Positions 45,137-49,399 of a DNA stretch of 51,722 nt are shown in pieces. The DNA comes from Chloroflexota bacterium (GTDB taxonomy: Bacteria > Chloroflexota > Limnocylindria > Limnocylindrales > CSP1-4). A program made the position numbers and the translations under genes. The stretch covers positions 14,143 through 65,864 of the forward strand of contig PMBR01000065.1 of the NCBI GenBank assembly GCA_003152995.1. The letters run 5' to 3'. Below the pieces are notes generated by a model that worked only from the letters and a program-made list of their open reading frames with translations, was not told the DNA's origin and did no database searches. Every line of letters starts with the position of its first letter. Position 1 is the first letter of the stretch.

Positions 45137-45338
45137 GTCGCCACTCCGGCGGCATCGCGTTGCGGGGTGGCGCCGTGGCCGCCGTCCCGGCCGCTGATCA
45201 GCCGGCGAGTGCAGTGGGCTGCTGACGGGCGCAGCACCCATGCCGAGCGATGACATGCACGGAACGGCACGGGCCGGTCTGATCGGCAGGCCTCCTCCTC
45301 CGTCGTGCCCTTCGTGATAACCTACCGCCAACCTTTCC

Positions 45339-45410
45339 AGCCGGCCGTGAGACCGGCTCCCGGTCCTGTGAGTCCGGCGTACCGGTCCAGAGAGACCGGG
45401 AAGGAGGTCC
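45339..45410 (+). promoter_or_regulatory. PyrR-type leader RNA of carA
   Basis: After a short hairpin AGCCGG/CCGGCT (45339-45344 with 45353-45358) comes the sequence GGTCCAGAGAGACC with CAGAGA in the loop of a CCGGTC/GACCGG hairpin (45382-45387 with 45394-45399), then GGGAAGGAGG. TCCAGAGAG plus a downstream AAGGA is the known PyrR-binding pattern (Rfam PyrR element). A lower stem CCCGGTC/GACCGGG (45359-45365 with 45394-45400) is an alternative fold. The AAGGA is also the Shine-Dalgarno of the leader ORF. UMP-bound PyrR should therefore lower carA expression. PyrR itself is not in the window. Confidence 0.75.
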
Positions 45411-45521
45411 ATGGTCGCCTGCAATGAGAACCACCGCGCCAGTTCGGCCGGTGGCTTTTTTCCGAGCGCCGCCCGCCACTGCTCCGCGCGTCGCTGCGCC
45501 GCCGGTCGAGCCGGCGCGTGA
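45411..45521 (+). CDS. 36-codon carA leader ORF
   Basis: An ATG three bases after AAGGAGG opens a 36-codon frame (MVACNENHRASSAGGFFPSA and 16 more residues) rich in Ala, Arg and Gly. It passes right through the terminator hairpin (the T-run encodes two Phe) and ends with TGA sharing one base with the carA ATG (TGATG). The position, ribosome-binding site and stop/start overlap suggest it couples translation to carA. The peptide itself is probably not functional. Confidence 0.6.
   Translation: MVACNENHRASSAGGFFPSAARHCSARRCAAGRAGA
45431..45461 (+). terminator. Intrinsic terminator (attenuator) inside the carA leader ORF
   Basis: Stem CCACCG-(bulged C)-GCC pairs with GGC-CGGTGG (45431-45440 with 45446-45454) around a 5-base loop, followed by TTTTTT at 45456-45461. 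It lies between the PyrR element and carA, so it can stop transcription before carA. Confidence 0.8.
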
Positions 45522-46777
45522 TGGAAACTCCACGACCGTTGAAGCAGCCACCGTTCCCGCGGTCCAGCGCCGTCGTCGACCCGCGGGTCGGCGACTACGG
45601 TCCGGCGCTCCTGGCCCTCGAGGATGGGCGGCTGTTCCCCGGCGTCGCCTTCGGCTCGCAGCGCTCAGGCCAGGGCGACCTCGTCGTAAACACCAGCCAG
45701 ACCGGCTACCAGGAGATCGCCACCGATCCCAGCTACGCCGGCCAGCTCGTTGTCATGACCTACCCGCTGATCGGCAACTACGGCCGCGTCCGCTACGACG
45801 ACCAGTCGGAGCGGCCGTGGCTACGCGGCCTGATCGTGGCCAACGCCACCGCCGCCGTGCTCGACGATGCCCGCCAGCTCGCGACGATGCTGCGCGAGGC
45901 CAGCATTCCGGCGATCGCCGGCGTCGACACGCGAGCCCTCGCCCGACACCTCCGATCGAGCGGCTGCCTGCGAGCCATCGTTACCGCGCCGGGACAGACG
46001 GATCCGGAGGAAGCTCGCGCGCTCGCTCGAGCCGTGCCGCGTTGGGAGGACCAGGATTTCGTGGCCGAGGTCTCTCCCGCGGCGGCGCGCGACGAAGGCG
46101 ATCCGTCTGAAGGCGGCCCATTGGTGGTGATCCTGGACTTTGGGCTCAAGACGAACATCGTTCGGAGCCTCCGGCGGCGGGGAGCGCGGATACGGATCCT
46201 TCCTCATACAGCCACTGCCGACCAGGCGCTGGCGCCCGAAGTGGACGGGGTCGTCTTCTCGCCCGGACCCGGCGATCCGGCTCGACTGGACGGACCAGTG
46301 GCGCTGGCTGCCGCCGCTATCGAGGACGGACGGCCGCTTCTCGGCATTTGCCTGGGCCACCAGATCATCGGCCGCGCGGCCGGGGCGAACACGCGGCGCC
46401 TCCCCTTCGGTCACCACGCCGCGAACCATCCGGTCAAGGACCTGGAGACCGGCCTGGTTCAGGTCACCGCCCAGAACCACGAAGTGACCGTCATCGGCGA
46501 GACGCTTCCGCAGGCGAGCGGCTTCGTCGTCAGCCAGATCGACCTCAACGATGGCTCCGTAGAGGGTCTGCGCCACCGCACGCTGCCGATCGAGACAGTG
46601 CAATACCACCCGGAGGGCGGCCCGGGGCCGCTCGACGCACTGGCGGTCTTCGACAGGTTCGTCTCGGCCGCCCGCGCGCGGCACGGCGGCACGGAGCCCG
46701 AAGCTACGATCGGCAAGGTCGAACCCGTCCACCTCGAGGCGGCCGAGCTGGCGAAGCGACTTCGGGGGATGGTCTAG
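45521..46777 (+). CDS. carA: Carbamoyl-phosphate synthase small subunit
   Basis: A 418-residue glutamine amidotransferase subunit. It has 'ALLALEDGRLFPGVAFG', the N-terminal 'GYQEIATDPSYAGQLVVMTYP' and 'IPAIAGVDTRALARHLR' signatures, and a class I GATase domain with 'GICLGHQIIGRA' (nucleophile Cys277) and 'VQYHPEGGPGP' (His/Glu). It supplies ammonia from glutamine to CarB for pyrimidine and arginine synthesis. The ATG is preceded by an extra ~25-residue N-terminal stretch and overlaps the leader stop. carB is not adjacent within the window. Confidence 0.97.
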   Translation: METPRPLKQPPFPRSSAVVDPRVGDYGPALLALEDGRLFPGVAFGSQRSGQGDLVVNTSQTGYQEIATDPSYAGQLVVMTYPLIGNYGRVRYDDQSERPWLRGLIVANATAAVLDDARQLATMLREASIPAIAGVDTRALARHLRSSGCLRAIVTAPGQTDPEEARALARAVPRWEDQDFVAEVSPAAARDEGDPSEGGPLVVILDFGLKTNIVRSLRRRGARIRILPHTATADQALAPEVDGVVFSPGPGDPARLDGPVALAAAAIEDGRPLLGICLGHQIIGRAAGANTRRLPFGHHAANHPVKDLETGLVQVTAQNHEVTVIGETLPQASGFVVSQIDLNDGSVEGLRHRTLPIETVQYHPEGGPGPLDALAVFDRFVSAARARHGGTEPEATIGKVEPVHLEAAELAKRLRGMV

Positions 46778-47125
46778 AGGCCGGCGGCTGTTCCAGGTTC
46801 GCCGGCTACCTGAAGCCCACATCGCCGTCCTGCGCCAGGGCTCCGAACTGGACTGTTCGGTAACCGGGTCGCGGCCGATGGCGACGGCCCGGGTGGGGCC
46901 GATCGGCTCCATCTGTGAATCTGCGGGGCGTTGGACTAGCATGGCCGCGTCATTTGCCGCGGTCCGACGAATCCCGTCCCATTCGGCCCTCCGCGGAGCG
47001 CGGACTCACCCGGCCCGGCTCGAGCGGTGTCCCCATCGCGGCCCGTCGGCGGTCGTGGGCGTACCGGATAGGTAGGAGTGAGGCGATCGACGGCCGCCGG
47101 CACCCGGCGGCCCATGGAGGGTATC
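46778..47125. other. 348-base gap between carA and the Ig-repeat gene
   Basis: I see no gene. A TAGCAT at about 46938 could be a -10 element. GGAGGG at 47116-47121 serves the start of the next gene. Confidence 0.4.
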
Positions 47126-49399
47126 GTGGTTACACTCGGGTTATCCCGGGACCGCAGGCGGGGCCGTCTTTCGCTCCTGCCCGCCGTCGCCGTCGCCTGT
47201 GCAGCTTTCGCCGTCCCGTACCTGGCCGCGGCTCCCAGCGTCCAGGCGGACTCCGCCAGCCAGCTCGAGATCGCCACATTCAGTGACACGGGCGTGCCGA
47301 CCGACGGCGTTCCGTTGCAACTGGCGGTGATCCCGGCCGATGCGAACGGCAATACGGACACTTGCTTCGACGACAAGATCCATTACAGCGATCCGTTCGC
47401 GATCGTCCCGCCCGACTACACGTTCAATCCCATCAACTGGGGCATCTTCTGCACGGGCGACGACACATTCTTCCATGGCTTTCAGATGACGCCGTTACGC
47501 CCGGGCCCCCAAACGCTGACCATAGGCGACCTGAACCACACGTCAATAAAGGGGACGTTCACGATCGACGTGTTGCCGGGTCCCGCGAGCAGCTTCGTCT
47601 TTTCCGCGCTGCGTCCGAGCGCGACGCTCGGCAGTGAGGCCGACTTCAGTCTCACGATCAAGGACCTCTTCGGCTACACCGCCACCAACTACACGGGGAC
47701 GGTCCATTTCACGAGCACGGATCCCGCGGCGACGCTCCCGTCGAGCTACACGTTCAACGCTTCCGACGCGGGTACCCACATCTTCCCCGTCACGTTCAAC
47801 GACACCGGCAGCCGATCGGTCACGGTGACGGACACGGCCAATCCGTCGGTGCATGCGACGGCGACGACGACCGTCTCCGCCGCACCACATTTCGAGATCT
47901 GGACGGGCGGCACCGCAGAGGCGGGGTACATGACTCAGTGGGACATCGACGCGACGAAGGCCGACGGGACGCCGGACACCTCATACACCGGGACTGTCCA
48001 CCTGACCAGCACCGACCCGAAAGCCGACCTCGGCGGGGCAGACATCAAGTTCGCCGGAGGTGGATCGCAGATGGTCGAGCCCACGTTCTTCGCCGCGGGC
48101 ACCCAGACGCTCACTGCGACCGACACGCTCAACCCGGCCATCAGCGGGACCGCGACCATCGAGGTGCTGGGTGGCGACGCGGTCTCTGCCGCGATCTCCG
48201 GGTTGTCTGCAGCGATGATCGCCGGGCCAGTCGCGGTCACGGTGACGGAGAAAGACGCGTATGGCAACAACGCCTCTTCGGGCGCGATCAGCTTCACGAG
48301 TTCCGATCCGAAGGCGATCCTTCCGGTCGGGCTCATCTACTTCCACCCGACCAACTACGGCACGCGCCAGTTCTCGATCACGATGGAGACCGAAGGCTCG
48401 CAAACGGTCACCATCACCGGCGCTTCGGGCGGCTCCCAGTTCCAAGACACGCAGCCAGTTACGGTGCTTCGCGGCCAGACCACCCATTTGTCGGTTAGCA
48501 CCGCCAGCTCCTATGTCGCCGGCGTCGCCCATAGCGTTACGGTGAAGGCCCTCGACGCCTACGGCAACACGGATTCCAGCTACCAGGGGGCAGTTCACTT
48601 CACGAGCACGGACACGAAGGCGGCGCTGCCCGCCGATTACACCTTCCTGGGGTCAGATGCAGGCTCCCACGTCTTCGCCGTCACTCTCAAGACTGCCGGC
48701 ACGCGGTCGGTGACCGCTACAGATACGGTCACAGCCTCGATCAAAGGCAGCCAGAGCGGGATCGTCGTCACGCCGGCCGCGGCAAAGACGCTCGTCGTCG
48801 CGGGCATGACGACGCCACGGACCGCCGGAACTACGGGCAGCATCCGAGTCACGGCTGCTGACCTGTACGGCAACCGCGTTACGGGCTATCGGGGCACGGT
48901 TCGCTTCACGAGCACAGACAAGCGGGCCAGCCTGCCCGCCGACTACGCCTTTGTGGCGGCGGACAACGGTACCCACGTCTTCGTTGCGACCGTGATCCTC
49001 AAGACAGTCGGCACCTGGTCCGTGACCGCGACCGATAAAGTCACGGCCTCGATCAAAGGCACGCAGGCGGGGATTGTCGTGAACGCCGCGGCCCTCTCCA
49101 TGCTGGTCGTTTCGGGCATGACGACGCCACGGACCGCGGGTTCCACCGGCAGCATACGGGTGACCGCGACCGACACGTACGGCAACCGCATTCATGGCTA
49201 CCTTGGCACCGTCCACTTCACTTCGACAGATCCAGCCGCGAGCCTGCCGGCGAACTACACCTTCACGGCCGCGGACGCCGGCACGCACGTCTTCGTGGCA
49301 AACGTGATCCTCAAGACAGCCGGCACCTGGTCTGTGACCGCGACCGATACCGTGACCGTCTCGATCAAGGGTTCGCAGACCGGGATCGTCGTCAACTGA
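47126..49399 (+). CDS. Secreted protein with tandem Ig-like repeats
   Basis: A 757-residue protein. A signal peptide (residues 1-42; basic start, 'LLPAVAVACAAFAVPYLAAA', cleavage near 'VQA-DS') is followed by a variant first domain and at least six Ig-like modules of about 98 residues. Each has a strand like 'GTVHFTSTDPAATLP' and a later 'DAGTHVF' turn and 'SVTVTDT/SVTATDT' strand. The family occurs as cell-surface or exported stalks that bind proteins, sugars or surfaces. The last repeat ends at the stop, with no sortase motif, membrane anchor or SLH domain. I chose GTG 47126 because of the GGAGGG just before it; GTG 47078 and ATG 47114 are alternatives. Confidence 0.88.
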   Translation: MVTLGLSRDRRRGRLSLLPAVAVACAAFAVPYLAAAPSVQADSASQLEIATFSDTGVPTDGVPLQLAVIPADANGNTDTCFDDKIHYSDPFAIVPPDYTFNPINWGIFCTGDDTFFHGFQMTPLRPGPQTLTIGDLNHTSIKGTFTIDVLPGPASSFVFSALRPSATLGSEADFSLTIKDLFGYTATNYTGTVHFTSTDPAATLPSSYTFNASDAGTHIFPVTFNDTGSRSVTVTDTANPSVHATATTTVSAAPHFEIWTGGTAEAGYMTQWDIDATKADGTPDTSYTGTVHLTSTDPKADLGGADIKFAGGGSQMVEPTFFAAGTQTLTATDTLNPAISGTATIEVLGGDAVSAAISGLSAAMIAGPVAVTVTEKDAYGNNASSGAISFTSSDPKAILPVGLIYFHPTNYGTRQFSITMETEGSQTVTITGASGGSQFQDTQPVTVLRGQTTHLSVSTASSYVAGVAHSVTVKALDAYGNTDSSYQGAVHFTSTDTKAALPADYTFLGSDAGSHVFAVTLKTAGTRSVTATDTVTASIKGSQSGIVVTPAAAKTLVVAGMTTPRTAGTTGSIRVTAADLYGNRVTGYRGTVRFTSTDKRASLPADYAFVAADNGTHVFVATVILKTVGTWSVTATDKVTASIKGTQAGIVVNAAALSMLVVSGMTTPRTAGSTGSIRVTATDTYGNRIHGYLGTVHFTSTDPAASLPANYTFTAADAGTHVFVANVILKTAGTWSVTATDTVTVSIKGSQTGIVVN

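Follow-up and report, generated by a model that had tools for sequence, protein, structure and literature searches.

The carA leader of a Chloroflexota genome carries tandem PyrR-type hairpins, a short leader ORF and an intrinsic terminator, and is probably an attenuator under PyrR control whose antiterminator RNA is replaced by a translating ribosome, a reading that draws on the comparison of related leaders. The parts, their conservation among relatives and the presence of pyrR in the genome are established here. All positions refer to the window, i.e., the whole stretch of 51,722 nt that was analysed. The source genome is incomplete (3.05 Mb, 140 contigs, completeness 73%), and its close carA relatives with named records are Chloroflexi MAGs; one carA relative has a finer name, Candidatus Aquidulcis (67% identity), and is placed by NCBI in Candidatus Limnocylindria. 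The features of the locus are as follows.

45315..45323, + strand: extended -10 promoter-like element TGATAACCT, from the sequence; predicted transcript start at about 45330
45332..45338, + strand: anti-Shine-Dalgarno (anti-SD) tract CCTTTCC, predicted to form the 5′ arm of the lower stem by complementarity with the SD region
45340..45357, + strand: PyrR-type hairpin 1, loop CCGTGAG, from sequence and folding
45360..45377, + strand: PyrR-type hairpin 2, loop CTGTGAG, stem with one U-U mismatch; weak match (11.9 bits) to covariance model R1
45382..45399, + strand: PyrR-type hairpin 3, loop CAGAGAG, adjoining the SD; R1 45.1 bits with the SD (training row)
45400..45407, + strand: putative purine bulge and SD, GAAGGAGG, from the sequence
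45411..45521, + strand: leader ORF, ATG at 45411, 36 codons and TGA at 45519-45521; hairpin frame kept in 33/33 same-genus modules
45431..45454, + strand: terminator hairpin CCACCGCGCCAGTTCGGCCGGTGG within the leader ORF, 24 bases, -15.3 kcal/mol, by folding and strict scan
45456..45461, + strand: six-T tract of the terminator, from the sequence
45518..46777, + strand: carA from its probable start, coding for the small subunit of carbamoyl-phosphate synthase; 367 bits against NCBIfam TIGR01368 (cut-off 307)

The initial annotation had described a PyrR-like sequence containing the SD of a 36-codon leader ORF, and TCCAGAGAG..GAAGGAGG can be read directly at 45387-45407, followed by the ATG at 45411. 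The ORF also crosses a hairpin with a six-T tail (45431-45454, T at 45456-45461), as had been noted. The claim that it ends on the carA ATG holds in part: its TGA touches ATG 45521, but the start of carA is probably GTG 45518, because the usual junction in relatives is NTGA, the gene start preceding the leader stop by a single base (42 of 44 overlapping carA/carB leaders). ATG 45521 is the alternative, and the TGA overlaps both codons. No SD belonging to carA itself was seen. A generic scanner reported neither a terminator nor a promoter before carA, with no sigma-70 consensus site; TG[CA]TAACCT or a close variant lies at the same position in same-genus leaders (by eye). Downstream of carA is a large ORF (47078-49399) of repeated units that appear Ig-like or invasin-like by eye.

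A pyrR gene, with pyrB after it, was found in the genome. Its product scores 250 bits against the NCBIfam PyrR model (cut-off 138); among solved chains it is closest, with 236 bits, to 1ufr, a chain from Thermus. When plasmids were searched for PyrR, neither Thermus nor Deinococcus appeared among the named organisms. The expected covariance match did not appear: RF00515 of Rfam had no hit in the window at the gathering threshold or at E values up to 10, and none across the genome, while 3 of 14 control genomes were positive (B. subtilis, Lactococcus lactis and Thermus composti). The best relaxed Rfam match (M23, minus strand) scored 24.6 bits against a gathering threshold of 41.2 and was attributed to palindromes. 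Still, the leader has the PyrR core motif, and relatives conserve it in front of carA, carB and pyrR. Because there is no RF00515 match, the carA-leader element is better labelled PyrR-like than a member of that family. R1, which was built in this analysis from 31 training rows, reaches its 45.1 bits at the window with the window sequence among those rows; the unbiased match comes from the genome's own pyrR leader, which lies outside the training set (27.1 bits, E 0.0013). Seven weaker R1 matches inspected in the genome are followed by no pyrimidine gene recognisable by eye.

The element is larger than first described. The core was correctly recognised, but the window leader holds three tandem PyrR-type hairpins with the loop CNGNGA, preceded by the CCTTTCC tract at 45332-45338; the initial annotation had neither the multi-headed element nor the anti-SD tract, nor the carB module and the Thermus proposal discussed below. 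Hairpin 3 is GGUCCAGAGAGACC, which by eye fits the consensus ARUCCAGAGAGGYU, as given in the accessible part of PMC7430163, at 11 of 14 positions. Its core, UCCAGAGAG followed by purines, is the PyrR motif of the same text, where B. subtilis pyr attenuators are described with a UCCAGAGAG loop and a purine-rich bulge, PyrR stabilising the hairpin that permits termination. The window element likewise has this loop and a putative purine-rich bulge. The loop positions C, G, G, A and G are invariant across the 31 training rows, and GAAGGA follows the last head.

Among carA loci with 60% identity or more, 52 in number, 50 carry the PyrR motif with its SD; some of these loci are copies of one genome, and 42 distinct leaders remain after identical ones are merged. 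The same regular expression found none at 58 more distant carA loci, and R1, run on 53 of these, gave one match (L072). That locus comes from a MAG labelled Desulfovibrio, and its carA leader (2330-2440) combines a PyrR site with a hairpin that resembles a terminator and has seven T. The leaders of relatives that were compared number 90 (46 carA, 16 carB and 28 pyrR); L017, whose contig begins within the leader, and L056, whose extracted stretch ended early, were left out. The relatives are not independent, so all counts overstate the number of events. Heads were not parsed in five of the 90 leaders (L012, L014, L019, L031 and L205), and the script found no start in L143, L167 and L200.

Among the 85 parsed leaders, two heads are counted in 38 carA and 14 carB leaders and one head in all 28 pyrR leaders, the three-headed window itself being entered as two-headed. 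The parser assigned a single head to the remaining five carA/carB rows: it overlooked further heads in L008 and L010, the single head of L173 looks genuine, and L151 and L164 make up the rest. The last two, both carB leaders, have a long extra hairpin-like insert between their two heads. A third head is visible by eye in only some relatives (L008, L010 and L012). For the first head of two-headed leaders, which corresponds to hairpin 2 of the window, 97.1% of stem cells are paired compared with 90.3% in shuffles, and seven cells are changed on both sides; the pairing and the double changes were each equalled in 0 of 500 shuffles. The last head is nearly invariant and gave no covariation. In five carA leaders (L008, L010, L012, L014 and L019) the PyrR loop of at least one head is interrupted by a palindrome some 22 bases long, GCGACCG..CGGTCGC. 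It was rejected as a genomic repeat, having 3-5 forward places in each of the five genomes searched.

Of the 85 leaders, 79 have a pyrimidine tract complementary to the SD no more than 16 bases upstream of their first parsed head, against 41 of 239 control windows; the count rises to 84 with a wider stretch searched for L005, L008, L010, L151 and L164, and L171 is without the tract. Covariation in the closing helix does not reach significance, since swapping scores as high at the variable positions in 417 of 2000 cases (26 distinct sequence pairs), and the duplex energy of the helix does not differ significantly between native and swapped flanks (27 of 200 as low), a test in which third heads and several pyrR leaders were mis-parsed. 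Three of the pairs are pre-selected by the tract pattern, which leaves the presence of the tract as the one informative feature, and it is this conservation that suggests a helix closed between anti-SD tract and SD. The region 45330-45475 folds more stably than 200 of 200 shuffles (z -4.2). The lowest-energy fold in the window is not the three-headed form (-44.9 versus -27.8 kcal/mol for the heads with the closing helix), which would need to arise during transcription or through PyrR. Among ten relatives' leaders that were folded, L028, L030 and L135 gave two heads and the closing helix, and L007, L015, L022, L126 and L128 folded otherwise, mostly into one long hairpin. In family f2 (L030, L032, L033, L034 and L228), a tRNA-Lys (ctt) gene ends directly 5′ of the anti-SD tract upstream of carA, and L056 carries the upstream tRNA as well; the leader in this family may be cut from the tRNA transcript.

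The whole module also stands before carB in 16 genomes of the window's genus, in which carB lies apart from carA; in other genera carB closely follows carA (by eye). A CarB query of the window's own genome gave a single match of 49% identity, taken as no carB orthologue in this incomplete assembly. In carA and carB modules of the genus, 33 in all, the 5′ arm of the terminator hairpin keeps the same frame relative to the leader ORF in every case, and the hairpin begins 21 bases after the leader start in 32. Conservation of leader frame and hairpin, which the initial annotation had named as a check, is borne out, the frame in 33/33 and a strict terminator in 32/33. The carB leader L138 has a terminator loop shorter by one base than that of L151; its frame differs after the loop, and its leader stop falls a few bases past the gene start.

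Overlap between leader stop and gene start was counted by script in 44 of the 61 carA/carB leaders, those of the genus included (mean 6.8 and maximum 16 after block shuffling, i.e., shuffles of two-base blocks and not true dinucleotide shuffles). Another 13 carA leaders are fused in frame, with carA starting directly at the PyrR-linked SD; overlap or fusion together (44 + 13 of 61) compares with a shuffled mean of 18.2 and maximum of 28. The script takes the start codon as its anchor and is blind to overlaps at pyrR, so the pyrR leaders were read by eye: 21 of 28 overlap and 7 start pyrR directly. It also mishandles L010, L131, L138 and L055, which were re-read by eye with the script counts left unchanged. 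The peptide shows no sign of being kept, because codons 2-6 differ by 714 non-synonymous and 120 synonymous single-step pairwise changes (30 distinct sequences), and no shared run of regulatory codons, of the amino-acid attenuator type, was seen in the leader peptides by eye. From this we infer that the act of translation, and not the peptide, matters.

The terminator was assessed with a strict scan, which replaced a loose one that proved uninformative (43 of 61 native versus 21.9 shuffled). Strict terminators occur in 37 of 61 carA/carB leaders (shuffles 1.3, maximum 4); the window terminator is on the list, and within the genus they are found in 16 of 17 carA and 16 of 16 carB modules. They are absent from 24 of the 45 carA leaders scanned, where control would be translational only. 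In L052, L053 and L205 the terminator sits inside the N-terminal coding part of the carA fused to the leader, as it does in L173 by the loose scan. The leaders that lack a terminator bring to mind pure translational repression of the M. smegmatis type: PyrR would occlude the SD, translation of carA would depend on coupling, and hairpin and T-tract would matter little for transcription. The missing terminators agree with this, as do the 13 carA and 7 of 28 pyrR leaders (by eye) that start their gene directly at the PyrR-linked SD and the Nonomuraea pyrR leader, which by eye has a single head and no terminator. For the window's genus we nonetheless think this explanation unlikely, as a strong hairpin and T-tract are kept, in a translated stretch and in one frame, in 32/33 carA/carB modules, and other classes again have terminators, built on different stems.

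A second device that combines a PyrR hairpin and a terminator in one leader is Bacillus-type attenuation, where the ORF would be incidental and an antiterminator RNA would compete with the terminator, as described for B. subtilis in the accessible part of PMC7430163. In B. subtilis the antiterminator excludes the terminator, whereas none is detectable in the carA leader. Tested jointly, the 33 same-genus modules showed no antiterminator: complementarity between the terminator 5′ arm and upstream sequence averaged -11.6 native and -12.0 shuffled, and the value of the window itself was equalled by 80 of 100 shuffles. The sole outlier in the genus was L160, with 2 of 100 shuffles as low. As a positive control, a strong antiterminator was found in all three pyrR leaders of family f10 (L235, L247 and L248; 0-3 of 200 shuffles as low), which are Chloroflexota leaders of Bacillus-like layout, without a leader ORF by script. 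Of 12 other Chloroflexota pyrR leaders, L244 was clear (2/200) and L224 (13/200) and L240 (15/200) were borderline; L160 and L244 could carry an antiterminator. A Bacillus-like layout is represented in the same phylum, but the lack of excess complementarity and the conserved open frame with its stop/start overlap make it improbable for the window leader. The comparison, i.e., no antiterminator in 33 same-genus modules versus three in the Bacillus-like layout, favours what the initial annotation had proposed, that PyrR would block leader translation and that the lack of ribosomes would let the terminator form.

A leader ORF that runs through a terminator is also the arrangement of E. coli pyrBI, where ribosomes prevent termination and control depends on UTP-sensitive pausing and not on PyrR. 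If the carA leader worked in this way, polymerase pausing would be the sensor and PyrR would act elsewhere. Beyond the shared layout there is little to recommend this: PyrR-type hairpins are conserved on the leader SD, and no conserved U-rich stretch was seen by eye before the terminator, so that we give it very little credence. Less credible again is that the T-tract doubles as a -1 frameshift site producing a leader-CarA fusion. No stop interrupts the gene frame between T-tract and gene in 31 of 33 modules, among them that of the window (45456-45590), and 13 carA leaders are already fused in frame; however, L009 has a stop in that frame (the other exception, L131, is a possible parsing artefact), short distances favour openness, and the stop/start overlap already accounts for coupling.

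The ribosome-gated attenuator would then operate as follows. At high UMP, PyrR-UMP would bind the CNGNGA hairpins and stabilise the pairing of the CCUUU tract with the SD. With the SD closed the leader ORF would be untranslated, and without ribosomes the terminator in the ORF would fold and transcription would end before carA, which would receive no ribosomes either. At low UMP, ribosomes would enter at the SD, traverse the terminator region, stop at the TGA on the carA start and restart there, leaving the leader peptide as a presumed by-product. The gate on the leader SD would have two outputs: in the absence of a ribosome, the terminator would leave no transcript and coupling would yield no CarA. 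Timing would be demanding, because the hairpin begins just 21 bases after the leader start. PyrR binding, the response to UMP or uracil, termination and reinitiation are the predicted steps of this scheme, deduced from the arrangement and conservation of its parts.

R1 matches 55 of 251 genomes drawn from the phylum. Outside the window's class, 17 pyrR leaders were chosen by their R1 matches and are not a random sample; 14 of them were parsed, the 17 including L235 and L247 (no site by regular expression) and L248 (no start). L238 and L241, with no gene match, were unused, and the R1 match G294 was left out. By script, the leader ORF spans the terminator in 11/17, so that a peptide passing through the terminator, which the initial annotation had considered uncommon, is not rare among these R1-selected Chloroflexota leaders. 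Among the 14 parsed leaders the ORF ends on the pyrR start in nine, and a terminator is present in 12 (shuffles 1.6, maximum 5). Judged from these sequences, ribosome-read and antiterminator layouts both occur in Chloroflexota. In six pyrB leaders (L217, L219, L233, L234, L237 and L246) the PyrR site lies right at the pyrB start, with a T-run between SD and ATG.

For the pyr leader of Thermus ZO5, Van de Casteele et al. are said to have proposed in 1997 (J. Bacteriol.) that PyrR acts without an antiterminator, a translating ribosome preventing the terminator from forming. The carA leader fits this type, defined by a PyrR site on the leader SD, an ORF through the terminator and no antiterminator, and the role of the ribosome would be the same. 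The Thermus leader reportedly has one site, before pyrR, whereas two or three heads are found here, at carA and carB, and the Chloroflexota module brings comparative evidence across a phylum. In Mycobacterium smegmatis, PyrR reportedly represses translation from a site on the SD (Fields and Switzer are said to have described this in 2007), and leaders of this repressor type are not known to have a terminator. A PyrR-type site covers an SD in the carA leader too, but this SD belongs to a leader ORF and the terminator lies inside that ORF. The carA leader resembles E. coli pyrBI in its ORF through the terminator and differs in having PyrR in place of pausing. The pyr leaders of B. subtilis have one head each. 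Since a similar proposal for Thermus reportedly dates from 1997, the Chloroflexota leader is a variant of known pyrimidine switches and not a new kind. The accessible part of PMC3766115, which covers 211 RF00515 sites in 255 genomes, contains no description of the carA-leader layout. Among the matches listed in a literature search (titles and the starts of abstracts, with subscription papers mostly uncovered), none described the layout in Chloroflexota or tandem PyrR hairpins.

Taken more broadly, these leaders may represent a phylum-wide class of PyrR attenuators, unmatched by Rfam in the window's own genome. In this class one to three hairpins would share one SD-closing stem as a graded or cooperative receptor and the ribosome would serve as antiterminator, and lineages would have swapped between this, direct translational control and a Bacillus-like antiterminator; we put the chances of this wider proposal at about even. 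Annotation with Rfam only would miss such sites, because there is no RF00515 match in this genome. With leaders of one, two and three heads, whether PyrR acts cooperatively on RNA could be tested directly. If the proposal is true, one RNA-binding protein would have three interchangeable readouts within one phylum, i.e., antiterminator RNA, direct SD occlusion and a ribosome-gated terminator, and these leaders would offer natural intermediates for the evolution of attenuators.
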